This document shows positions 23,609-36,331 of a stretch of DNA of 64,000 nucleotides, piece after piece. The notes beneath the pieces were generated by a model. The model was not told the origin of the DNA and made no database searches. It saw only the letters and a program-made list of their open reading frames with translations. How positions within the stretch are numbered: position 1 is the stretch's first letter; each line of letters opens with the position of its first letter. Source of the stretch: Kitasatospora sp. A2-31 (GTDB lineage Bacteria; Actinomycetota; Actinomycetes; Streptomycetales; Streptomycetaceae); assembly GCF_022288725.1 (NCBI RefSeq), contig NZ_JAKNTA010000005.1:533658-597657 (forward strand). The letters are read 5' to 3'. Position numbers and translations under genes: made by a program.

Positions 23609-26600
23609 CTACGGGTTGACGGGCAGGACGGGGGTGTTCACGGTCGGGATGCTCCAGCGCTGCGCCGGCGTGCCGTTGCAGGTGAACAGCTGGAAGACGG
23701 TGCCCGGGTTGCTGTTCGCCCAGGGGACGTCCAGGCACAGGCCCGACTGCGGGTTGTAGAGGCTGCCGTCGGCCCGGGCGCGCCACTGCTGGCCGCCTTC
23801 GCCGAGGCAGGTCCACAGGATGATCGCGGTGCCGGACGCGGTGCCGTTGCCGCTCGCGGCCACGCACTGGCCGTTGATGGTGAGCGTGCCGTTGGCGTTC
23901 AGGCTGAACCGCTGGGCGTCGGTGCCGTTGCAGTCCCACAGCTGCGGGTGCATGCCGTTGCCGGTGTTGTTGTCCGGTGCGTCCATGCAGCGGCCGACGT
24001 GGGTCGCGAAGCGGACCGGGCTGTTGCTGGTGGTCGCGGTGACCGCGGTGTTGTAGACGGCGAGGTTGCTGACCCGGCCGGTGAGGTAGTTGCTGCTCGC
24101 GTCGTTGTTGCGGTAGCGGCCGACGACCAGGCTGCCGGTCGCGGTGGGGCTGGTCGACGCGGCGTGCTGGGCGGTGCCGGCCAGGCTGCCGTTCACGTAC
24201 AGGTTCATCTGGCCGGTGTCGGCGTTGTAGCTGGCGGTCAGCTGGGTCCAGGTGTTCAGCTGGTACGCGGCGGCCGGGCCCATGGCGGAGGTCCAGTCGT
24301 AGGGCCAGGCGTTCGACGCGTCGTTCTGGGCGATGGCGAACTTCCAGGTGCCGTGATCGCCGTAGATCATGAACGAGCTGCCGTGCGCGGTCTCCTGGCT
24401 GACGATCATGCCGGCGTCGTCCTTGGCCAGGTAGGCCCAGGTGCTGACGGTGAAGCTCTTGCGGGTGTCGACGGTGTACTTGGCGGTGAGGTCGGACTTG
24501 CGGGTGCCGTCGAAGGCGGCGACCTTGGTCGCGTGGCCGTCGACGGTGTCGTCGGTCCAGGCGACGCCGTTGGCGGTGCCGTTGTACCCGGCCGGGTTGG
24601 CGGTGGCGTCGCCGGTCAGCCGCCACTGGGCGTACGGCGCCTGGGTGGTGCCGCGGATGTGCTCGCCGGTGAAACCGTTGACCTTGCCGGAGGCGGTGGT
24701 GGCGGCCCAGACGTGCAGGTTGCCCGAGGCGTCGGCGGCCCAGAAGTCGGGCACCTGGTCGTCGGTGACGTCGCCGTCGGAACCGACCGTCGGGTAGCTC
24801 CCGGCGGTGATGCCGTAACCGATCCTGGTGGCCGGGTTGGCCGTGAGGGCGGTCACCGTGGTGGAGCCGTCGGGCCGTCCGGCGGTGGTCGGCGCGTACT
24901 GGAAGATGTCGCCGTTGGTCCGGTTGCGGACCCACAGGGCCGGGGTGGTGGCCGTGGTGGCGCCGATCGCCAGCGTGTTGCCGGGGACCATCAGGTCCTT
25001 GTCGTCCCAGCCGCCGGCCGAGACCAGGGACGGCGGCGCCAGGGTGTGGTTGGTCTTGACCGGGTAGAACCAGAGGCTGTCCGAGTCGATGGCGAACACG
25101 CCGGTGGCGTCGGTCACCCGGCGGCTCGGCGTGCGGGTGTCCTTGGCCGAGCCGATCGGGGTGATCTGGCGGGCCAGGGCCCAGCTGCCGCCGTCGTGGT
25201 GGCCGTTGCAGGAGGTGGCGTACGCGGTGTCGCAGTCCGGCCGGTCGACGGTGGTCGCGGTGCCGCGGGTGAAGCGGCCGGGGTCGGAGAGCGTGTCGGA
25301 GTAGTAGTACAGCGCGTCGTCGCCGTCGCCGGCGCCGGGCTTGCTCGGGTCCTTGTGGACGAACAGGTCGTCCAGGTTGGTGGTCGGGTCGAGCGAGCCG
25401 CGGTGCGAGACCCGGTAGTCCTTCCACGTCCGCGGGTTGGTCGGCGAGTCGTAGCCGGGTGCCTGGGCGGCCGGGGCCGCGGTGCCCGTGGGCGGCACAC
25501 TGGCGTTGCCCGCGTCGGTGGCCCGGCCGTGCGTCACCAGGTTGCCGGCGGTGTCGGCCAGCAGGATGTCCGGGCGGGCGTCGCCGGTGGTGTCACCGAA
25601 GGCGACCGGGCCGGGCGCCCACGGGACGTAGAAGGCGTACGAGTAGGTCTGGGAGGAGTTCCCGGCCTCGTCGACGGCGCGGGCGTACAGGACGTTGGTG
25701 CCCCAGTGGGTGGGCTTGGTGGTGATGTCCGTGACCGCCAGGGAGCCGCCGGGAGCGCACGTGCGCTCCGCGCCGGCCAGCTGGGGGTCGTAGCTCCACT
25801 CGACGCAGGCCAGGCCGGAGGAGATCAGGCCGGCGCCCGGGCTGGGGTCGGAGGCGGTCACCGGGATGTGGCCGGTGTCGCCGAGCTTCAGCTGCGTGGT
25901 CCGGCCGTTGCCGGCCGGCGGGAACTGGGTGGCCGGGTCGGTGAAGGCGCCGAAGCCGAACACCGGCGGCGTCAGGTCGACCGCGAAGTGGCAGACGGTG
26001 CCGGCCGGGCCGCGCAGCAGGCCGTCGTCGCCCTGGGCGTACCAGCCGTAGTGGTGGCCGTTCTGGAGCAGCCCGACCGGCAGGTCGTACGCCGCCTCGT
26101 TGCCGGTGCCCACGAAGCCGGACCACCCGTTGTTCACGGTGTTGCCGCCGGTGGTGTTGTCCCAGATGCTGACGTACTCGGTCAGCTGGCCCTGGTTGGG
26201 GCTGCTGACGGTGGAGCGCAGCGTGGCGGTGGTGTTGGTGACGTAGCCGTACGAGGAGACCGGGACGTCGGCGCAGGCGTCGGTGTCCGAGGCGGTGACC
26301 CGGTGCGGGGCGGGGGTGACCCGCTCGTTGGTGGGCACCCGCGGCGGGAAGTCGTACTCGCTGCTCAGCGTCGCGTCGTAGGAGTACCGCTTGAAGCCCA
26401 TCCGCTGACCGCTGCCCTCCTGGCCGAGGACGGCGAAGGCGAGCGGCACGCCGGTGTTGCGGATGCCGTCGCGCAGGGCGTTGGTGATGTTGAAGTCGAT
26501 CGGGATGTCGTTGTAGCACTCCGACAGGGTGCCGTTGCCCGGCACGTTCTTCCCCTCGATCCACTCCCGGACCTGGTGGTTGCCCCACGACACGGAGGAG

Positions 26601-28000
26601 TCGAACTCCCGCGCCCGGTAGAGGTTGACCGGGTAGGTCGTGGTGCACGAGTGGTCCGAGGAGATGTACTGCTTGATCTGCAGGTTGGCGTAGTTGATGG
26701 TGGCGCCGGCGTAGCCGTTCAGGTCGAACTCGTACAGCGCCCGCTCGATGCCGTACGGGGACTCCCAGCCCTGGTAGCCCGAGCCCGGCCGGTCGCGGTC
26801 GTTGGAACCCGTGCGGTCGAAGTTGCCGGTGGTGCTGTGGGCCTGCATCACCCAGGCGTGGTGCTGCTTGCCACGGGCGTCCCGGCCCCAGGACGGGTCG
26901 ACGTAGACCGGGTACGAGGTGCTGGGGCCGTCCAGCAGGTCGGGGCTCGGGGTGAGGGTGATCGCGCCCTCGGCCTTGCCGCCCTTGTCGTGGACCTCGG
27001 CCCCCGTGACCGGGATGTCCGCGACGGTGGCGAGCGAGCCGGGGCCGGCGGTGGTGCTCGGGGCGTCCGGGGCGGTGCGGGTCGCGGCGCTGGCCTCGGT
27101 GGGCTGCCCGGCGGGCGCCTCGGCGGCCTTCGGGGCGCCCAGGGCGCGGGGCGCCGAGCCGGCGAAGGCCTCGGCGGCGGACTTGGCGGCGGCCCGGGCG
27201 GCCGGCGTGCGGGCCTCCTTGGCCGACCACATCTGGGGGGTGGGGGCGGTGAAGACCGCCTCGCCGCCGGCGGAGGCGGTCAGCGCGCCCTCGGCGGTCT
27301 TGCCGAGCTCCAGCCCCTTGGTGGCGGTGGGGAAGACGAGGGTGCGCACGGCGGGGTTGGCGGCCGCGGCGGGGGTGCGCAGCACGACGACGGTCGTGTA
27401 ACCGCCCCACTTGCTCGCGTTGACCTGCAGGTCGGTGTCCGGTGCGACGTCGCGGAAGAGTGCGCCGTTGCCGGTGAGCACCGGCGCGGGGAGCGGGCCG
27501 GGGAACGGCGAGGAGACGGCGAGCTGCCGGCCGTCCTGGGTGGTCATGGTGGCCAGCGGGCCGGTACCGCCGCCGGAGATGACCAGGTCGCCGCTGGCGA
27601 CCGTGGGGGCGACGGTGCCGTCGGGGCGCTTGACGAGGGTGTCGTCCAGGGCGGCCCAGGAGCCGTCGGTCCGCTTGGCGCGCTGGGCCTGCTGGTGCTG
27701 CTCGGAGCGCAGCTTGCCGCCGGCGGTGGCGACCACCGTGGTGTACTCGTCGGTGAGTTCGGGGACGGGGACGTCCCTGCCCTCGCGCTTGGCGCGGGCG
27801 ATGGCTTCCTGGACCTTGTCCGGAGCCGGCCGCGTGGGTGGCTTGGCGGCAGTGGCGCTCGGGGCCGGGGAGGGGCCGCCGGCGGCGTGGGCGGCGAGCG
27901 GACTGACGGTCAGCAGTCCGGTCACGACGGCGAAGGAGACCAGAGCGGCGGCGGGCCGTCCGGTCGACCGGACGGGTCTGGGTCTGGGTGTGGTGGGCAT
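23609..28000 (-). CDS. Large secreted multidomain protein: DNRLRE-like, LamG and ricin-B lectin domains
   Basis: A 1463-residue exported protein. A Sec signal peptide with hydrophobic core AALVSFAVVTGLLTV ends at about AHA-AG. After a low-complexity region come a DNRLRE/CBM-like domain (about 355-560; YPVYVDPSWGRDARGKQHHAW...YEFDL...TINYANLQIKQY), beta-rich repeats, FG-GAP/VCBS-like elements (FGDTTGDARPDILLAD; GDVTDDQVPDFWAAD), a LamG jellyroll (about 1125-1320; FTVSTWAYLAKDD...LYVNGSLAGTA) and a C-terminal ricin-type beta-trefoil (about 1330-1463; GRCMDAPDNN, GQCVAASGN, GLCLDVPW). The ATG has GGGGGAG upstream. No catalytic domain is recognised; a glycan-binding surface or matrix protein is likely. 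It is divergent from, and shares a lectin type with, the RHS protein. Confidence 0.85.
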   Translation of the reverse strand: MPTTPRPRPVRSTGRPAAALVSFAVVTGLLTVSPLAAHAAGGPSPAPSATAAKPPTRPAPDKVQEAIARAKREGRDVPVPELTDEYTTVVATAGGKLRSEQHQQAQRAKRTDGSWAALDDTLVKRPDGTVAPTVASGDLVISGGGTGPLATMTTQDGRQLAVSSPFPGPLPAPVLTGNGALFRDVAPDTDLQVNASKWGGYTTVVVLRTPAAAANPAVRTLVFPTATKGLELGKTAEGALTASAGGEAVFTAPTPQMWSAKEARTPAARAAAKSAAEAFAGSAPRALGAPKAAEAPAGQPTEASAATRTAPDAPSTTAGPGSLATVADIPVTGAEVHDKGGKAEGAITLTPSPDLLDGPSTSYPVYVDPSWGRDARGKQHHAWVMQAHSTTGNFDRTGSNDRDRPGSGYQGWESPYGIERALYEFDLNGYAGATINYANLQIKQYISSDHSCTTTYPVNLYRAREFDSSVSWGNHQVREWIEGKNVPGNGTLSECYNDIPIDFNITNALRDGIRNTGVPLAFAVLGQEGSGQRMGFKRYSYDATLSSEYDFPPRVPTNERVTPAPHRVTASDTDACADVPVSSYGYVTNTTATLRSTVSSPNQGQLTEYVSIWDNTTGGNTVNNGWSGFVGTGNEAAYDLPVGLLQNGHHYGWYAQGDDGLLRGPAGTVCHFAVDLTPPVFGFGAFTDPATQFPPAGNGRTTQLKLGDTGHIPVTASDPSPGAGLISSGLACVEWSYDPQLAGAERTCAPGGSLAVTDITTKPTHWGTNVLYARAVDEAGNSSQTYSYAFYVPWAPGPVAFGDTTGDARPDILLADTAGNLVTHGRATDAGNASVPPTGTAAPAAQAPGYDSPTNPRTWKDYRVSHRGSLDPTTNLDDLFVHKDPSKPGAGDGDDALYYYSDTLSDPGRFTRGTATTVDRPDCDTAYATSCNGHHDGGSWALARQITPIGSAKDTRTPSRRVTDATGVFAIDSDSLWFYPVKTNHTLAPPSLVSAGGWDDKDLMVPGNTLAIGATTATTPALWVRNRTNGDIFQYAPTTAGRPDGSTTVTALTANPATRIGYGITAGSYPTVGSDGDVTDDQVPDFWAADASGNLHVWAATTASGKVNGFTGEHIRGTTQAPYAQWRLTGDATANPAGYNGTANGVAWTDDTVDGHATKVAAFDGTRKSDLTAKYTVDTRKSFTVSTWAYLAKDDAGMIVSQETAHGSSFMIYGDHGTWKFAIAQNDASNAWPYDWTSAMGPAAAYQLNTWTQLTASYNADTGQMNLYVNGSLAGTAQHAASTSPTATGSLVVGRYRNNDASSNYLTGRVSNLAVYNTAVTATTSNSPVRFATHVGRCMDAPDNNTGNGMHPQLWDCNGTDAQRFSLNANGTLTINGQCVAASGNGTASGTAIILWTCLGEGGQQWRARADGSLYNPQSGLCLDVPWANSNPGTVFQLFTCNGTPAQRWSIPTVNTPVLPVNP

Positions 28001-28181
28001 GGAGCTCCCCCGTGGTTCGGCGCGCACCGTTCAGGGCGGATACGCAGAGGTCAGGCGCACTGTCGCAGTTCTGACGGACTGCCGACAACGTGCGCGGATC
28101 GGGCTTGTCCGGGTTTGGATGCGAAACGGATCGGATGACCGGGCAGTGAGATGGGTCACTCGCCCCGGCCTCCGTCCGGGG

Positions 28182-28212
28182 TTGGCAGTGCCGGTCACCG
28201 GACTGCTAGGTT
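28182..28212 (+). promoter_or_regulatory. Promoter of the RHS gene
   Basis: TTGGCA (28182-28187), a 19-bp spacer and TAGGTT (28207-28212) lie 58 bp before the GTG start. The leader that follows (28220-28258) is markedly AT-rich. In the opposite direction TTGTCG-18-GACAGT (minus strand, 28088-28059) is a weaker candidate for the divergent lectin gene. Confidence 0.5.
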
Positions 28213-28270
28213 CCGCCTGCTTATTTCTGATGAGCATTCAAATACCTTTTGCACTCAACGGGGTGGGAAC

Positions 28271-31200
28271 GTGTCAAAAACGGACAGACCGCAGCGCGGG
28301 AGAATTCCGTGGCGGTGGATAGCCGCGCCGGTCGCCTTCGCGGTGGCCGGCTCGCTGATCGGCCCGGCGGCGCAGGCCGCCCCCAAGCCGGACTTCTCCA
28401 AGGTCTGGCAGCCGCCCGGCACGCCGCTGCCCGGCAGTCCCTCGGTCACCGTGACGGACGCCGCCAAGGCCGCCGCCGTCGCGCCGCACTACCCCGTGCC
28501 CGAGCGGGCCGGCAAGGCGGCCGCCCCGGCCCCGGCCCAGCGCGAGTCGGCCACCGCCGACCTCGCCGGTGCCCGCCCGGAGGCGCCCGCGAAGGCCGGC
28601 CGGCTGCCGGTCTGGGTGGCGCCCGGGCCCGGCGCGGCCGCGACCGCCGGGACCCCCGCGGCGGTCACCGTCGTCCAGGGTGACGCGCCGAGCGCCCGCG
28701 CGGCCGGCGTGAACGGCCTGCTCTTCAGTCTCACCGCACAGCCGGCGACGGCGGCCCCCGCCGCCGCCCCCGCACCGCAGGACGGTGCCGCTCCGGCGCC
28801 GGTCCAGGTCGGCATGGACGTGGCCGCGCTGGACGCCGCCACCGGCGGCGAGTTCGCCTCCCGGGGCCGCCTGGTCACGCTGCCCGCGTGTGCCGCGACC
28901 ACCCCGGACGTGCCCGCCTGCCAGGTCCGGACCCCGGTGGCGAGCCACTACGACGCCGCCGCCAAGCGCCTGGTCGCCGACCTCGCGCTGCCCGCCGCGC
29001 CCACGGCTCCGGCACCGGCTCCGGAGAAGTCCGCCGGCGGCGCCGTCAAGGCCGCCTTCGCCTCCGGTGCGCTCGAGGCCCCGGCCGCGGCCCCCGCCGC
29101 CGCACCGCTGCTCCTGGCCGCGGAGACCGCGCCGGCCGGCGGGGGCGGCGACTACGCCGCCTCCACGCTCAACCCCTCCTCGGCCTGGGCCGCCGGCAGC
29201 GCGTCCGGCGCGCTGAACTACAGCTACCCCATCCAGGTGCCGCCCTCGCTCGGCGGCGCGGCGCCCACCGTCGCGCTCGCGTACAACTCCTCGTCGGTGG
29301 ACGGCAAGACCTCCGCCACCAACGCGCAGGCGTCCTGGGTCGGTGACGGCTGGGAGCTGAACCCCGGCTTCATCGAGCGCACCTTCAAGCCGTGCGACAA
29401 GGACGGGATCAAGGGCTCGGGCGACGAGTGCTGGGCGGGCTTCAACGCCACCCTCTCGCTCGGCTCGCACTCCGGCCAGCTGGTCCGCGACCGCAACGCC
29501 GGTTCGGCCGGTGCCACCACCGACGCCGCCACCGGCGTCTGGCACCCCAAGGACGACGACGGCACCAAGGTCGAGTTCGGCTCCGGCGCCGGCAACGACG
29601 CCCGGGACGGCGCCTACGCCAAGGTGACCGACAGCTCCGGCACGGTCTACTACTTCGGGCTCAACCACCTGCCCGGCGGCGACAAGAGCGACCCCGCGTC
29701 CAACTCCGTCTCCACCGTGCCGGTCTACTCGCCCAACAGCGGCGACCCCTGCTACGACTCGGCCCAGGGCAAGGCGTCCTGGTGCCAGATGTGGCAGCGG
29801 CTCTCGCTGGACTACGTCGTGGACCCGAAGGGCAACCTGACCACCTTCACCTGGTCCCCGGAGACCAACTGGTACGCCCGTGGCGGCGGCCAGAACAACG
29901 GCAACGGCACCCGCACCGCGTACACCCGGGCCAACCTCCCGGCCTCCGTCGCGTTCGGCCAGCGCCTGGACGAGCAGGTGGCCGCCAAGGGCGCCCTGCA
30001 GCCGGCCGCCAGGATCACCTTCACCACCGCCGAGCGCTGCCTCGACACCGCGAACTGCGACCCCGCCCAGCGCACCGTCGCGAACAAGAACAACTGGCCC
30101 GACGTGCCGGTGGACCAGGAGTGCAAGCAGGACGGCACCTGCACCCACTACGGGCCCAGCTACTTCACCACCAAGCGCCTGTCGGGCATCACCACCCAGG
30201 TGCGCGTCAACAACGTCTGGAAGGACGTCGACGCCTACGAGCTGAAGCACTCCTTCCCGGACCCCAAGGACGCCACCAGCCAGAAGGCGCTGTGGCTGGA
30301 CTCGGTGAAGCGCACCGGCAGGACCGCGACGCCCGAGCTCAGCTCCCCGCTGGTCAGCTTCACCCCGGTGATGCTGCCCAACCGGGTGGACGGCACCGAC
30401 CTGGTGCCGGCGCCCCCGCTGATGAACCGCCCGCGCATCCAGCAGATCCACAACGAGCTCGGCGGCGTCCTCAACGTCGACTACAACCTGCCGGCCTGCT
30501 CCCGGATCAACAAGGTGATGCCGGTCGCCGAGGACGACAACACCCTCGGCTGCTACCCCGTCCGCTGGCTGCCGCCGGGCTCGGTCGCCGACGCGACCCC
30601 GGTGCTGGACTGGTTCAACCACTACACGGTGGCCTCGCTGACGGAGAACGACACCGCCACCGATGCCCCCCAGAAGATCACCAAGTACGCCTACGAGCGG
30701 GCCGGCTGGCACCGCGACGACAGCGAGTTCACCGAGTCCAACGCGCGTACCTGGGGCGACTTCCGCGGCTTCGCGGCGGTCACCGTCACGGCGGGCAGCG
30801 GCAACGACGGTCCCCGGACGCAGACCCGCACCACCTACCGGCAGGGCATGGACGGCGACGTCCGGATCGGCGGCGGCACGCGCAGCGTGCACCTGACCGA
30901 CGCGCTCGGCCGGGACGTCGTCGACGTCGACTGGCTGGCCGGCCAGGTCCTGCAGACCGAGGTGTTCGACCAGGAGAACGGCAAGGTCACCTCGCGGACC
31001 GTGAACGGCGCCTCCGGCGAGGTCGCCACGGCGACCCACCCGCGCGGCAACGGCCTGCCGGACCTCGTCGCGCGCTACACCGCGACCACCCGGACGGTCA
31101 CCACCCAGGGGCTCAAGGCCGACCAGACCTGGCGCACCACCACCAAGACCACGGTCAGCGACCCGGCCCACCCGAACCGCACGAGCACGGTGCTCGACCA

Positions 31201-34200
31201 GGCCGACGGCCTGCCCGACCTGTGCACCCGCACCTCCTACGCCACCGGGCCCGACCCGCAGCGCACCGACCTGCCCGCCGAGACGCTGACCGTCTCCGGC
31301 GCCGGCGCGTGCACCGCCACCGCCGGCCCCGGCAACACCGCCTCCCGCAGCCGCGTGCTGTACGACAACCTGCCGTTCGGCCAGGCCGGGGCGACCGCCA
31401 ACCCGAGCGGCGCCCAGGAGCTGGAGCGCTACGAAGCGGACGGCAGCGCCACCTTCACCGACACGACCAGCACCACCTTCGACAAGTACGGCCGGGTCGA
31501 GTCGGTCACGGCGCTGACCGTCAAGGACGCCCAGCACCCGGGCGGCGCGACCACCCGTACCAGCTACGCGGCAGCCGCGGCCGGTGAGCTGCCGTCCACG
31601 CTGACCTCCTCGGCGCCCGCGCCCGGCCTCAGCGGGGTCACCTGGGACACCGTCACCACGATCGACCCGCGGCGCGGCAACACGCTCACGGTCAAGGACC
31701 CGAACAACAAGACCAGCACGCAGGTCTGGGACGCCCTCGGGCGGCTCACCGGTGTCTGGCTCGCCGGCCGTACGCCGGGGGCCAACCCGAACCCGAACCT
31801 GAGCTACGCGTACAACCTGTCGAACACGGCCGGCTCGCCGTCCTCGGTGACGACGTTCGTGCTCAAGAAGGACCTGGCCAACCCGGTCCAGACCCGCAAG
31901 ATCGACATTCTGGACGGCTTCGGCCGCACCCGGCAGACCCAGGCCTCGCCGGCCAACCCGGCCTACACCGGCCGGCTGATCACGGAGACCCTGTACGACT
32001 CGCAGGGCCGGGTGAAGACCGCCGACGCGGCCTGGTACAACAACGCCTCCGGCCCGACCGGGACCCTGGTCCAGGCGGCCGACTCGACCGTCCCGGCCCA
32101 GACCCGCACCACGTACGACGGCCAGGGCCGGGTCACCGTGGTGGCCTCCTGGTCGCTCGGCGTCGAGCAGAACCGCTCCACCACGGTCTACGCGGGCGTG
32201 GACCGCGTCGACCTCATCCCGCCCGCCGGCACCTGGCCGACCAGCGCCGTCTCCGACGCCCGCGGCCGCACCGTCGAGCGGTGGCAGTACAACACGCCCA
32301 CCGCCACCGGCAACCGTGCCGACGCGGTGGTCTCCAGCTACGGCTACACCGTCGAGGGCAAGCCCGAGTCGCGCACCGACGCGGCCGGCAACCGCTGGTC
32401 GTACGGCTACGACCTGCGGGACCGCCAGATCTCGGCGACCGACCCGGACACCGGCACGGTCACCCAGACCTACGACCAGGCCTCCCGGGTGGCGACCACC
32501 ACCGACAACCGCGGCCGCACGCTCGCCTTCACCTACGACCTGACCGGCCGCAAGACCGGCGTGTACGAGGGCAGCGTGGCCCCGGCCAACCAGCTCGCGG
32601 GCTGGTCCTACGACACCGTCGTCAGGGGCAAGCCGGCCTCGTCCACCCGCTACGTCGGCGGCGCCGCCGGGCAGGCGTACACCACGGCCGTGACCGGGTA
32701 CGACGACGCCTACCGGGCCACCGGGGCCACCATCACGATCCCCGGTAGCGAGGTCGGCCAGACCGGCACCTTCAGCTACTCCGTGTCGACCGCGTTCGAC
32801 AAGATCACGGGGAACGTGAAGTCCCGCCTGCAGCCCGCCGTCGGCGGGCTTCCGGTCGACGACTTCGCGTACTCGTACAACGACTACGGTCAGCTGTACA
32901 AGTACGCCGGTGCCACCACCTACGACACCCAGACCGAGTACGACGCCTTCGGGCGGGCCACCCGGTCCACCGTCAACCCCTGGGCCACCCAGGTCGTCGT
33001 CACCAACGACTACGACCAGGCCACCGGCCGGCTGCGCAACCAGTTCCTGGACAAGCAGACCTCCACCTCCGGTGCGGTCCAGCAGACCGGCTACACCTAC
33101 GACGACTCCGGTCGCGTCACGTCGATCAGCACCACCCCCGACAACAACCCGGCCGCCCGCGACCTGCAGTGCTTCGGCTACGACAGCCTCGGCCGGCTGA
33201 CCACCGCCTGGAGCGACACCGGGGGCGTCACCGTCCCGGACCCGGCCGAGCACCAGACCCCGGACCAGGGCCGGTGCACCAACACCACCCCGACCAGCGG
33301 CGCCGTCGCACCCGCGCTGACCACCGTCGGCGGCGGCAACCCCTACTGGCAGGAGTACGGCTACGACGTCACGGGCAACCGCACCCGGTTCGTCCAGCAC
33401 GACACCGGCGGCGACGCCACCAAGGACGCCGTCACCACCCAGACGTTCCCGAACCCGGGGACCGTCAACACCGGCAACGGCAGCGGCGGTCCGCACGCGC
33501 TGACCGGCACCGGGACCAAGGTCGGCGCGAGCACGACGGTCTCCGGCAGCGACAAGTACGACGCCGCCGGCAACACCACCTCGATCTACACCTCCAGGAC
33601 CGGCACGGCCGACCTCGCCTGGAACACCGAGGGCAAGCTCGACACCTTCGCCCAGGCCGGCCCGATCACCGGCATCGGCGGCAAGTGCCTGGACATGCAG
33701 GGCGGCAGCTCGGCCAACGGCACCCCGGCGCAGATCTACACCTGCGGCTCCGGCGGCGGCCAGCGCTTCGCGGTCAACGGCGGCGTGCTCAAGGCGTTCA
33801 ACAAGTGCGTGACCGCGATGGGCACCGCGGCCGGCTCGCTCGTCCAGCTCCAGCCCTGCGACGGCGGCGCCGCGCAGAAGTGGACGGCCCGCGCCGACGG
33901 CACCGTCCTCAACCAGGCGGCCGCCCGCTGCCTGGCCGTCCCGGGCGACGTCACCACCAACGGCACCGACCTGGTGCTGGGCGACTGCGCCACGACCGTT
34001 CCGGCCGGCCAGAAGTGGACCGTCCCGAGCCAGGTCACCAGCTACGTCTACGACGCGGACGGCAACCAGCTGATCCGCCGCAACCCGGGGAAGACCACCG
34101 TCAACCTGGGCGGCGACGAGCTCACCTACGACACCGTCGCCAAGACCCTCACCGGCACCCGCTACTACCCGGTGCCCGGCGGGCTCACCATGGTCCGGGT

Positions 34201-35386
34201 CGGCGCCGGCGGCCTCACCATCCAGCTGGCCGACCACCACGACAGCGGCCTGCTGACCGTCGACGCCACCAGCCTCGCCGTCACCCGCCGGCCGATGGAC
34301 CCCTTCGGCAACCCCCGCGGCACCCAGCCCGCGGCGGGCGTCTGGGCGGGTGACAAGGGCTTCGTCGGCGGCTCCAAGGACGACGTCACCGGTCTGACCA
34401 ACCTGGGGGCACGGCAGTACCAGCCCTCCACCGGGCGGTTCGTCAGCCCGGACCCGCTGCTCGTCCCGGACGACCCGCAGCAGTGGAACAGCTACGGCTA
34501 CTCCCACAGCGACCCGGTCAACCGCAGCGACCCGTCCGGCCTCTACGACCCGGACCTGCGCGAATGGCAGATGCAGCAGGAGCGGGCCGAGCGCGAGGCG
34601 CAGGCCACCGCCACCGGCGAGGAGGAGCCGGACCTCGGTTCCGACCCGGAACCGGAGGAGGAGAAGTGGTGGAAGGTCTGGACGCCGCGCCACGACACGG
34701 CCGTCCTGATGGCCACCGCCTACCTCAAGGCCCGGCACCCCTACAACGACTTCGACAACGACGTCTTCGTCCGCGAGGGTTCGGCCAAGGGCAACAAGAA
34801 GCCCGGCTACGCGGACATCGTGGAGTGGGGCAAGGACGAGGTCCTGGTCTGGGAGGTCAAGCACGAGGGCGGCGGCGCCGAGGACGCCGGACCGGCGCAG
34901 CTCGCCCGGTACATCCGCCAGCTGCAGGTCATGCTGATCGAGAACGGCGACCACCGCACCGTGAAGGCCGGTGGTGCGCTGGGCACCGAGCTGGGCCCCG
35001 TCCCCAACTTCGCCAACCCCGCCGAGTTCATCACGGCCAAGGACGGCAAGTCGGACGGCATCATCACCTACAGGTGGTCGAAGGAGGACACGCGCGGCGG
35101 CGAGCCCGATCCGGTGCCGCACCCCGTCCCGGTCCCGCAGGCCAGTCCGATCCCGCTGAGCGAGCGGGGGCGCAGGCCCGGCTGGACCACCACGCGTCCG
35201 ATCAAGGGGGCGCCGGCCGCCGACGCCGCGCCGGCGCGGGCGATGCCCTACGCCACCACCCCGGGCGACGGCGAGGGCGGAATGGGAATCACCTGGGTGG
35301 CTCCGACCCAGCAGCAACAGACCAATATCCTGGTCAGCGTCGTGCTCGGTGGATTGTTGGTCATCGGCGCCGTCGCCATCGCCTAA
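28271..35386 (+). CDS. Secreted RHS/YD-repeat polymorphic toxin with PD-(D/E)XK-like tip
   Basis: A 2371-residue protein. The GTG start is chosen because it gives a Sec signal peptide (core IAAPVAFAVAGSLIG, cleavage after AQA); upstream codons do not fit one. Order: alanine/proline-rich region (to about 290); SpvB-like entry (VALAYNSSSVDGKTS, about 330-365); YD repeats (many G-R-x-x-x-x-x-YD/YDxxGR units, about 1000-1780); an inserted ricin-B lectin (about 1796-1923; GGKCLDMQGG, QKWTARADGTV, ARCLAVPGD); RHS core ending GARQYQPSTGRFVSPDPL...DPSGLYDPD at about 2041-2091. The tip (2092-2290) shows PD-(D/E)XK nuclease residues Asp2182, Glu2195-x-Lys2197 and Gln2210-x-x-x-Tyr2214. A proline-rich stretch and a C-terminal hydrophobic segment (TNILVSVVLGGLLVIGAVAIA) follow, which is unusual for a toxin tip. 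Confidence 0.85.
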   Translation: MSKTDRPQRGRIPWRWIAAPVAFAVAGSLIGPAAQAAPKPDFSKVWQPPGTPLPGSPSVTVTDAAKAAAVAPHYPVPERAGKAAAPAPAQRESATADLAGARPEAPAKAGRLPVWVAPGPGAAATAGTPAAVTVVQGDAPSARAAGVNGLLFSLTAQPATAAPAAAPAPQDGAAPAPVQVGMDVAALDAATGGEFASRGRLVTLPACAATTPDVPACQVRTPVASHYDAAAKRLVADLALPAAPTAPAPAPEKSAGGAVKAAFASGALEAPAAAPAAAPLLLAAETAPAGGGGDYAASTLNPSSAWAAGSASGALNYSYPIQVPPSLGGAAPTVALAYNSSSVDGKTSATNAQASWVGDGWELNPGFIERTFKPCDKDGIKGSGDECWAGFNATLSLGSHSGQLVRDRNAGSAGATTDAATGVWHPKDDDGTKVEFGSGAGNDARDGAYAKVTDSSGTVYYFGLNHLPGGDKSDPASNSVSTVPVYSPNSGDPCYDSAQGKASWCQMWQRLSLDYVVDPKGNLTTFTWSPETNWYARGGGQNNGNGTRTAYTRANLPASVAFGQRLDEQVAAKGALQPAARITFTTAERCLDTANCDPAQRTVANKNNWPDVPVDQECKQDGTCTHYGPSYFTTKRLSGITTQVRVNNVWKDVDAYELKHSFPDPKDATSQKALWLDSVKRTGRTATPELSSPLVSFTPVMLPNRVDGTDLVPAPPLMNRPRIQQIHNELGGVLNVDYNLPACSRINKVMPVAEDDNTLGCYPVRWLPPGSVADATPVLDWFNHYTVASLTENDTATDAPQKITKYAYERAGWHRDDSEFTESNARTWGDFRGFAAVTVTAGSGNDGPRTQTRTTYRQGMDGDVRIGGGTRSVHLTDALGRDVVDVDWLAGQVLQTEVFDQENGKVTSRTVNGASGEVATATHPRGNGLPDLVARYTATTRTVTTQGLKADQTWRTTTKTTVSDPAHPNRTSTVLDQADGLPDLCTRTSYATGPDPQRTDLPAETLTVSGAGACTATAGPGNTASRSRVLYDNLPFGQAGATANPSGAQELERYEADGSATFTDTTSTTFDKYGRVESVTALTVKDAQHPGGATTRTSYAAAAAGELPSTLTSSAPAPGLSGVTWDTVTTIDPRRGNTLTVKDPNNKTSTQVWDALGRLTGVWLAGRTPGANPNPNLSYAYNLSNTAGSPSSVTTFVLKKDLANPVQTRKIDILDGFGRTRQTQASPANPAYTGRLITETLYDSQGRVKTADAAWYNNASGPTGTLVQAADSTVPAQTRTTYDGQGRVTVVASWSLGVEQNRSTTVYAGVDRVDLIPPAGTWPTSAVSDARGRTVERWQYNTPTATGNRADAVVSSYGYTVEGKPESRTDAAGNRWSYGYDLRDRQISATDPDTGTVTQTYDQASRVATTTDNRGRTLAFTYDLTGRKTGVYEGSVAPANQLAGWSYDTVVRGKPASSTRYVGGAAGQAYTTAVTGYDDAYRATGATITIPGSEVGQTGTFSYSVSTAFDKITGNVKSRLQPAVGGLPVDDFAYSYNDYGQLYKYAGATTYDTQTEYDAFGRATRSTVNPWATQVVVTNDYDQATGRLRNQFLDKQTSTSGAVQQTGYTYDDSGRVTSISTTPDNNPAARDLQCFGYDSLGRLTTAWSDTGGVTVPDPAEHQTPDQGRCTNTTPTSGAVAPALTTVGGGNPYWQEYGYDVTGNRTRFVQHDTGGDATKDAVTTQTFPNPGTVNTGNGSGGPHALTGTGTKVGASTTVSGSDKYDAAGNTTSIYTSRTGTADLAWNTEGKLDTFAQAGPITGIGGKCLDMQGGSSANGTPAQIYTCGSGGGQRFAVNGGVLKAFNKCVTAMGTAAGSLVQLQPCDGGAAQKWTARADGTVLNQAAARCLAVPGDVTTNGTDLVLGDCATTVPAGQKWTVPSQVTSYVYDADGNQLIRRNPGKTTVNLGGDELTYDTVAKTLTGTRYYPVPGGLTMVRVGAGGLTIQLADHHDSGLLTVDATSLAVTRRPMDPFGNPRGTQPAAGVWAGDKGFVGGSKDDVTGLTNLGARQYQPSTGRFVSPDPLLVPDDPQQWNSYGYSHSDPVNRSDPSGLYDPDLREWQMQQERAEREAQATATGEEEPDLGSDPEPEEEKWWKVWTPRHDTAVLMATAYLKARHPYNDFDNDVFVREGSAKGNKKPGYADIVEWGKDEVLVWEVKHEGGGAEDAGPAQLARYIRQLQVMLIENGDHRTVKAGGALGTELGPVPNFANPAEFITAKDGKSDGIITYRWSKEDTRGGEPDPVPHPVPVPQASPIPLSERGRRPGWTTTRPIKGAPAADAAPARAMPYATTPGDGEGGMGITWVAPTQQQQTNILVSVVLGGLLVIGAVAIA

Positions 35387-35431
35387 CTGACGGCCGTTCC
35401 AGGCCGGTCGAGAAGCAGCAAGGGACTTGTG

Positions 35432-36331
35432 ATGCACACCATCCGATGCGAGATCGACACGGAGTACCGCGACGCCGAGGCGTTCGCCGGTCTCGCATGG
35501 CGCTGGTTGGTCGAGGGTGCGGAACGCCTGGAGGGGGAGTCCCTCCAGGCGGTCCTCGACTCCACCGGCCTCGTCGAGGAGTCCCTCACCAAGGCCGTCC
35601 CGTGCGGCCCGCCGGGCGCGCTCTGGGGCTTCCTCTCGGCGGACAGCGTGAACCGCAGGAACGGCCGGATCACCCACCGCAGCAAGGTGCTGACCCGGAA
35701 GAACCTGCCCCTGCTGCGCAAGTGGCTGGCCACCGACGTCCAGCTGGCGGAGGTCGCCCTCTACCGGCTGGACGCCGAGGGCATGCCGGGCGAGGCGCTG
35801 GTGCGCCTCAGCGTCGCCCGGGACGAGGACAGCGAGGACTGGATCCGGCTCGGTGCGCAGGCCCCCGAGGGGCGCTTCGCGCCGGCCGACCAGGCCCGCT
35901 GGACGGACCTGCTGCGCGATTTCGCGCAGGAGGTCGACCCCTCCTACGCGCAGATCGGCTACGCCCGGACCCTGGGCCGGACCGAGCACGAGGAGCGGGT
36001 CGGTCCGCCGCTGCCCGGCATGACGCTGCCGCAGTCGCGGCGGCTGCTGCGCGGGTACGAGTGGCTGATGGTCGTCCCCCGGGAGATCGCGCAGCAGCTC
36101 GGCGGTGCGGAGGCCATCCGCGCCGCCGGGTTCCACCGGGTGGAGGAGCTGCCCGGCGGCGCCGTCCTGCTCCAGGCGGTGCCGGAATTCGACGGCTTCA
36201 CCGGTCAGGCGGTCGAACGGCTCTGGCAGGTGGTCAGGCCCGCGCTGCGCCCGGGGATGCCCAGGCGCTTCAGCGCGGACACCGAGGCCGGGGATCCGCC
36301 GAGCCGGATCTGGTACGCCGACACCGTCTGA
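35432..36331 (+). CDS. Candidate immunity protein, DUF3396/TsiV-like
   Basis: A 299-residue soluble protein without signal peptide, 45 bp behind the RHS toxin gene. Its C-terminal half (SYAQIGYAR...RRLLRGYEWLMVVPREIAQQLGGAEAIRAAGFHRVEELPGGAVLLQA) follows the pattern of the DUF3396 type VI immunity family: a conserved Gly-Tyr-x-Trp-Leu strand, then a long helix with LGG, then ELPGG and LLQA. The start is the ATG behind AAGGGA; a GTG directly before it is also possible. Position and family both suggest it neutralises the toxin tip in the cytoplasm. The assignment is by pattern memory and has not been checked by a search. Confidence 0.65.
   Translation: MHTIRCEIDTEYRDAEAFAGLAWRWLVEGAERLEGESLQAVLDSTGLVEESLTKAVPCGPPGALWGFLSADSVNRRNGRITHRSKVLTRKNLPLLRKWLATDVQLAEVALYRLDAEGMPGEALVRLSVARDEDSEDWIRLGAQAPEGRFAPADQARWTDLLRDFAQEVDPSYAQIGYARTLGRTEHEERVGPPLPGMTLPQSRRLLRGYEWLMVVPREIAQQLGGAEAIRAAGFHRVEELPGGAVLLQAVPEFDGFTGQAVERLWQVVRPALRPGMPRRFSADTEAGDPPSRIWYADTV

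Follow-up and report, generated by a model that had tools for sequence, protein, structure and literature searches.

The pairing of a PD-(D/E)XK nuclease toxin with an immunity protein of TsiV fold is a known principle of the type VI secretion system (T6SS), where TseV/TsiV and TseT/TsiT exemplify it. TseV/TsiV, a T6SS-delivered VRR-Nuc effector with its DUF3396 immunity protein, was described in eLife in 2022 (PMC9635880), and the available part of that paper gives PA0821 as the top DALI match of TsiV3 and reports a proposal that TsiT affects effector oligomerisation. In Gram-positive bacteria, the WapA/RHS proteins (S. suis, B. subtilis WapA) combine a Sec signal, a shell of YD repeats and a variable C-terminal toxin followed by an immunity gene, and do so without a T6SS, according to the part of PMC12704120 available to us. 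Tips of restriction-endonuclease fold, several of them on RHS proteins, are known as Tox-REase-1 to -10 (Zhang et al. 2012, PMC3482391, available part). Here we consider an RHS gene and its downstream neighbour in a 64,000-nucleotide stretch of Kitasatospora sp. A2-31 (the window, by which we mean the whole stretch analysed: contig NZ_JAKNTA010000005.1, positions 533,658 to 597,657). We regard it as likely that the RHS gene encodes a polymorphic toxin with a cargo made of a PD-(D/E)XK nuclease, a linker and a tail, and that the next gene provides an immunity protein of TsiV fold. The tip of the RHS protein and the adjoining gene had been picked out earlier by a sequence-only reading, and both were confirmed in their positions.

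TseT/TsiT, whose toxin is a P. aeruginosa PD-(D/E)xK effector, is like the locus in the window both in enzyme superfamily and in the immunity fold, and differs from it in being delivered by a T6SS. With TseV/TsiV the locus shares a PD-(D/E)XK nuclease adjoining a TsiV-fold immunity protein, as well as PA0821 as the top structural match, which it is for TsiV3 (PMC9635880, available part) and for the window protein alike. Even so, the effectors described in that text come from Gram-negatives, bear PAAR-like domains and are delivered by a T6SS, whereas the toxin here sits on an actinobacterial RHS protein whose N-terminus looks like a Sec signal; in addition, its tip gives no Pfam VRR-Nuc match and has a linker and tail behind it, and the immunity protein stays below the Pfam cut-off. 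The WapA/RHS proteins resemble it in the YD repeats, the variable C-terminal toxin with an immunity gene and, probably, the Sec signal and the lack of a T6SS, and differ in carrying other toxin domains and, as far as the available part of PMC12704120 goes, in that their toxin is the C-terminal fragment, whereas here a hydrophobic tail lies behind the toxin. The motif order of Tox-REase-6 (E, D, ExK, Q, Y; PMC3482391, available part) resembles that of the window tip (D, ExK, Q, Y), but no Tox-REase model matched any of 13 aligned tips at E values up to 1, and none is among the six Pfam families that did. DUF3396 is not mentioned in the available part of that survey, and among the papers listed in the open-access library searched (in one search 15 of 146) no report was found of DUF3396 paired with actinobacteria, of a hydrophobic module or tail behind an RHS toxin, or of the nuclease/TsiV pairing on Sec-type actinobacterial RHS proteins.

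On the evidence of its AlphaFold2 model, the tip is predicted with high confidence to be a PD-(D/E)XK nuclease, as the sequence-only reading had proposed. In the model a helix is followed by three strands, a second helix and a final strand, which is the core a-b-b-b-a-b fold of the superfamily, and the Asp and the ExK stand on neighbouring strands, with D45 on the strand 42-49 and E58 and K60 on the strand 53-61 (tip numbering). Its recognised structural matches are mostly PD-(D/E)XK enzymes, namely McrC (Z 7.2), NucS (6.8), AF1548 (6.8), Cas4 SSO0001 (6.5), Nt.BspD6I (6.0), Can2 (6.0), R2 endonuclease (5.4) and Hjc (5.2). The motifs to which that reading had pointed, YADIVEW, VWEVKH and AQLARYIRQL, begin at residues 2220, 2233 and 2249 of the open reading frame (ORF) counted from its first ATG; ORF residues Asp2222, Glu2235, Lys2237, Gln2250 and Tyr2254 are those it had numbered 2182, 2195, 2197, 2210 and 2214, which is consistent with a GTG start at 28271. 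Across the 13 aligned tips the residues H, G, D, W, K, Y and G do not vary, and these include the putative catalytic Asp, the Lys of the ExK motif and the Tyr, whilst the Glu of that motif is Glu in nine tips and Asp in the other four.

Sequence models point in the same direction, albeit weakly. Pfam and NCBIfam gave nothing above cut-off within the tip, and the weak Pfam matches of the 13 tips (E up to 1) fall in six families: NERD, PDDEXK_9, HSDR_N_2 and NucS_C, all of which we take to be PD-(D/E)XK families, and Vert_IL3-reg_TF and Hormone_3, which were dismissed as noise. Among the weakest genome matches of the tip profile is a type I restriction R subunit, hit at its HSDR_N nuclease domain (one of the four similar R-subunit-like proteins matched was checked in Pfam), and the profile also retrieves a NucS in another family. 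Membership of VRR-Nuc was considered and rejected: none of the 13 tips matched the Pfam VRR-NUC model at E values up to 1, and no VRR-Nuc/FAN1 entry was recognised among the best 50 structural matches listed.

The neighbour, by its model, folds like known immunity proteins against PD-(D/E)XK nucleases. It starts at ATG 35432, 45 bp past the end of the RHS gene, as claimed earlier. Its top structural match is PA0821 (7drg; Z 16.1, root-mean-square deviation 4.7, 241 aligned residues), and next come BPSL2088 (titled hypothetical protein, Z 11.7), 9oz0 (the PA3907-PA3908 complex, 11.0, presumably the same TseT/TsiT pair) and TsiT (7dym, 10.9), then the partner of a CdiA tip (6d7y_B, 6.8), the following row being at 5.3. 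The model therefore has the TsiV/TsiT fold. The sequence-only reading had seen a DUF3396/TsiV resemblance in the C-terminal half of this protein; the T6SS immunity fold stands, but it is not confined to that half, as 241 of the 299 residues match, and the sequence resemblance itself remains below the Pfam cut-off (PF11876, E 0.012, 15.5 bits against a gathering score of 25 bits). TsiV matches at E up to 0.1 appear in 16 of 27 aligned homologues (best 2.3e-4), with two other families once each. A PDB sequence search with the immunity profile was of no use, its sole match being a ubiquitin ligase at E 1.3, and a search of viral contigs with the immunity protein gave no relative.

The pairing of tip and neighbour recurs, as computed directly from the genomes. 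In 394 genomes of the family, homologues of the immunity protein were found at 35 places in 32 genomes, and the tip protein alone at 11 places in 11 genomes. A TsiV-like gene stands beside seven of these 11 tip-found loci, window included, and with two further pairs reached through the immunity gene (loci L048 and L061) beside nine of 13; counted from the other side, nine of the 35 places have a tip next to the immunity homologue. About 0.0006 such neighbours would be expected by chance, in a rough estimate that assumes 8.4 Mb per genome. The 13 strong matches of the tip profile are its own 13 rows, found by construction, and only its weaker rows were new. When five tips were run against one genome for each species, 13 loci came up, all with an adjoining TsiV-like gene; ten were new and three were the query contigs (G089, G054, G151), and since all five query tips have TsiV-like neighbours, the scan favours the TsiV side of the family. 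The immunity gene of G054 lies not downstream but in convergent orientation. In Kribbella antibiotica (L118:7267-10982, + strand) a single tip is followed by a row of four TsiV-like genes, three of them with weak Pfam TsiV matches.

As a hold-out, the immunity profile was run over 364 genomes of the class, where it matched in nine, four of them outside the family. At one of these four (L222, genome G816; immunity-profile E 1.6e-6) an RHS protein lies directly upstream in which GRADLVYGNEIWEVK is followed by LAQLGRYL, by a linker rich in Pro and Val and by a hydrophobic tail; the tip profile alone scored this tip at E 0.45. The three other out-of-family genomes gave no tip match within the stretch fetched. 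A search of the phylum with the tip profile matched two of 396 genomes, one being that of the window and the other matching through a NucS; at this sensitivity, then, the tip is rare beyond the family.

Several observations weigh against the toxin and immunity reading. Every fold match of the tip is below Z 8, a zone flagged for mere common arrangement; the lower Foldseek rows include non-nucleases such as cis-CaaD (the best Foldseek E value being 0.0011); Foldseek alone, run on the neighbour model, gave weak and scattered matches; and when the PDB was searched by sequence alone with the tip profile, gelsolin came first (E 0.0005), a match which covers a short stretch, has a best domain i-Evalue of 1.2 and was judged spurious. 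The mirror-tree correlation between tip and immunity protein, 0.92 over 19 pairs, falls to 0.29 (p 0.06) over nine non-redundant pairs, and each of the two correlates with the RHS core as well (0.86 and 0.81); its strength being due to close relatives, it was not used as proof of co-evolution. Four of the 11 tip-found loci (L077-L080) have no TsiV-like neighbour and a DxK in place of the ExK. At L077 the neighbour is a DUF1877 gene (E 3.5e-7); the DxK tips of L078-L080 sit on very long RHS proteins (L078, the only one scanned, has SpvB and TcdB-midN domains), and no immunity gene was recognised beside them in the ORF lists. Five more distant tips (L127-L131), with a diverged WEVK tip and a similar linker and tail, are likewise without a TsiV-like gene and adjoin a different protein of about 220-250 residues, with a weak DUF4304 match (E 0.049) in one of the three tested. 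Finally, at 26 of the 35 immunity homologues no tip was present in the fetched sequence, which reaches some 8 kb upstream as far as the contig permits (L050 being at a contig end), and among these lone copies are the closest homologues of the window protein (L043, L044, L045; 55-72% identity).

The lone genes and the tips with other neighbours, or with none recognised, speak for a reading in which the next gene is not the immunity gene of the tip, or else the tip is a degenerate or structural domain. Both seem very improbable to us given that the Asp and Lys are invariant, that for 10 of 11 pairs of relatives the tip shows a ratio of nonsynonymous to synonymous substitution rates (dN/dS) below 0.32, that the neighbour has the fold of known immunity proteins against this kind of nuclease, and that the toxin tail, whole or in part, is still kept upstream of four of the 26 lone immunity genes (L066, L068, L072, L074), which look like cassette remains. 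RHS genes are moreover present in all 41 family genomes checked, a weak test which gave no instance of the neighbour being conserved in a genome without an RHS gene. At L072 (4481-6184, + strand) one ORF joins a truncated FAD-linked oxidase in frame to the toxin tail, immediately ahead of the lone immunity gene; this could be a scar of recombination or come from an assembly error.

The window protein has YD repeats, an RHS-associated core, a variable C-terminal tip and an adjacent immunity gene, just as is expected of RHS polymorphic toxins, but its toxin is not the C-terminal-most module, for 95 residues (2317-2411) lie behind the nuclease model. The sequence-only reading is supported as to the nuclease and overlooked this linker and tail (35099-35383), as it did the ricin-B lectin of the same protein. 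Relatives have the same layout: 45-136 residues follow the tip in all 27 untruncated, non-duplicate tip proteins, with at least five Pro in some 20-residue stretch in 24 of them (four in L051, L056 and L118). Taken over 18-residue stretches, the peak hydropathy within the last 45 residues lies above 1.26 in 23 of the 27 (the exceptions being L048, L065, L077 and L119, and L051, L076, L078, L080, L120 and L121 passing narrowly at 1.27-1.31), compared to none of 39 control RHS proteins of the same family. Of 31 tip-match loci, these 27 remained once L115 and L116, which duplicate L065 and L076, had been taken out together with L069 and L114 (a single locus), whose ORF ends early with one in-frame TGA; the controls were the first 40 RHS entries of 2000-3000 residues in list order, skipping the window's own genome and the tip-bearing loci G032:C23 and G020:C12, and leaving out L177, which is cut by a contig end. 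None of the seven other RHS genes of the window's genome has a comparable hydrophobic end (three of the seven are near-identical). Three RHS C-termini on separate contigs of this genome (L084, L085, L086) are near-identical, either as copies or through assembly duplication.

The conservation of the tail was, like the tail itself and the two folds, computed directly. The post-tip region has a dN/dS of 0.12-0.38 in all 11 pairs of relatives compared, of which one has saturated dS and none includes the window sequence; these regions are not accidental read-through. Both this and the tail comparison rest on related sequences, six of the 11 pairs coming from two close groups, and the p-value of the tail comparison is therefore only a guide. 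The tail also recurs with this nuclease on differing chassis: SpvB/TcdB-midN (L078), DUF6531 (L061), Golvesin_C (L048) and NIDO (L222). The best reading is a probably Sec-exported RHS nuclease toxin with TsiV-fold immunity, in which nuclease, linker and hydrophobic tail form a cassette; compared to the T6SS systems, it is the chassis and the tail that are new. Several tails, both in the L127-L131 group and in the TsiV group, finish in a LYELAA- or MFELAA-like motif; an ssrA-like reading of such LAA endings was noted but not adopted.

Three candidate roles may be put forward for the tail: entry through a membrane, anchorage in the producer and plugging of the shell. On the first, which is tentative and in our view less likely than not, linker and tail could be a portable membrane-entry module of a cassette (nuclease, linker, tail and immunity gene) which moves between RHS chassis and actinobacterial families whilst exchanging its immunity family (TsiV-like, DUF1877, weakly DUF4304-like). 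A Sec-type N-terminus together with a strong C-terminal hydrophobic segment is also the layout of a C-terminally anchored surface protein, and the same toxin and immunity pair could thus be held in the producer's membrane by its tail, facing out and killing on contact, with no role of the tail in entry. That we find doubtful, as no positive stop-transfer residues lie behind the segment in the window, the tails are Gly/Pro-rich and less hydrophobic in L048, L065, L076 and L077, two hydrophobic stretches are apparent in L127-L131, and the strong hydrophobic stretches of control RHS proteins are mostly near the core, upstream of the C-terminal end. The spread of tail hydropathy across relatives (0.54 to 2.85) would in turn suit a plug or folding aid of the RHS shell without any membrane role, and plug elements (Lid/RAC) do occur in RHS shells according to the available part of PMC12704120; the tail, however, accompanies the nuclease across the four chassis just listed and none of the 39 other RHS C-termini is equally hydrophobic, which makes this reading rather unlikely too.

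On the main reading, the RHS protein would be exported through Sec, its YD-repeat shell folding around a C-terminal cargo of nuclease, Pro-rich linker and hydrophobic tail; the released cargo would enter a neighbouring cell, the tail perhaps assisting at the membrane, and the nuclease would cleave DNA by its Asp, Glu-x-Lys, Tyr site, whilst the cytoplasmic TsiV-fold protein would bind and block it in the producer and its kin. DNA is the substrate suggested by the nuclease fold. The immunity protein has no apparent signal sequence, and so would act in the cytosol; that it would inhibit by binding near the active site follows the precedent of TsiV3 (PMC9635880, available part). Export of the RHS protein by Sec, which is probable, and protection by the YD shell are drawn by analogy from the WapA/RHS literature (PMC12704120, available part). 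The N-terminal sequence is compatible with the Sec signal claimed by the sequence-only reading, and the claim that no type VI machine is involved agrees with the lack of any match to the VipA sheath (PF05591) in the window's genome, where the E. coli control was positive and other T6SS genes were not searched.

The RHS ORF spans 28151-35386 (+ strand), 2411 residues when counted from its first ATG, although the likely start, judged by its context behind a G-rich stretch, is the GTG at residue 41 of that frame. From this start the protein is ordered as a signal-like segment, YD repeats, ricin-B lectin, RHS core and tip (Table 1). The divergent neighbour at 23609-28027 (- strand), an ORF of 1472 residues, has LamG and ricin-B lectin domains at its end, so that two proteins with ricin-B lectins stand back to back. 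The host genome has 9.3 Mb and an estimated contamination of 5.4%.

Table 1. Coordinates in the window of the RHS gene, its parts and the adjoining gene.
Feature	Position	Strand	Evidence
RHS/YD-repeat polymorphic toxin gene, from its likely start	28271..35386	+	RHS_repeat E 7e-11; Rhs_assc_core E 4e-16; start context
Putative Sec signal peptide	28271..28378	+	Lys/Arg n-region, hydrophobic core, AQA-A cleavage-like site; sequence reading
Ricin-type beta-trefoil lectin domain within the RHS protein	33659..34018	+	Pfam PF00652 E 3.9e-19, residues 1837-1956
RHS-associated core, its DPSGL end being the usual junction with the variable tip	34298..34543	+	NCBIfam TIGR03696, residues 2050-2131
Predicted PD-(D/E)XK nuclease tip	34682..35098	+	ORF residues 2178-2316; AlphaFold2 predicted local distance difference test (pLDDT) 94.6, fold matches, conserved D, ExK, Y
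Pro-rich linker behind the nuclease	35099..35320	+	Sequence; Pro density in relatives
C-terminal hydrophobic tail, 21 residues, AVAIA end	35321..35383	+	18-residue Kyte-Doolittle maximum 2.85
TsiV-like candidate immunity gene, 299 residues	35432..36331	+	AlphaFold2 pLDDT 91.6; structural matches; Pfam TsiV E 0.012

In conclusion, these results would extend the TseV/TsiV principle from the T6SS of Gram-negatives to actinobacteria, and they show that candidate immunity genes of no fewer than three kinds adjoin the tips of a single toxin family. How Sec-exported Gram-positive RHS/WapA toxins enter their target cells is an open question, the translocation mode of S. suis WapA being called enigmatic in the available part of PMC12704120, and the finding that a single nuclease family is accompanied by a conserved and for the most part hydrophobic module bears on it. 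Should the tail indeed be a membrane-entry module, this would be a class of polymorphic toxins whose enzyme, instead of standing last, has its own translocation device behind it.

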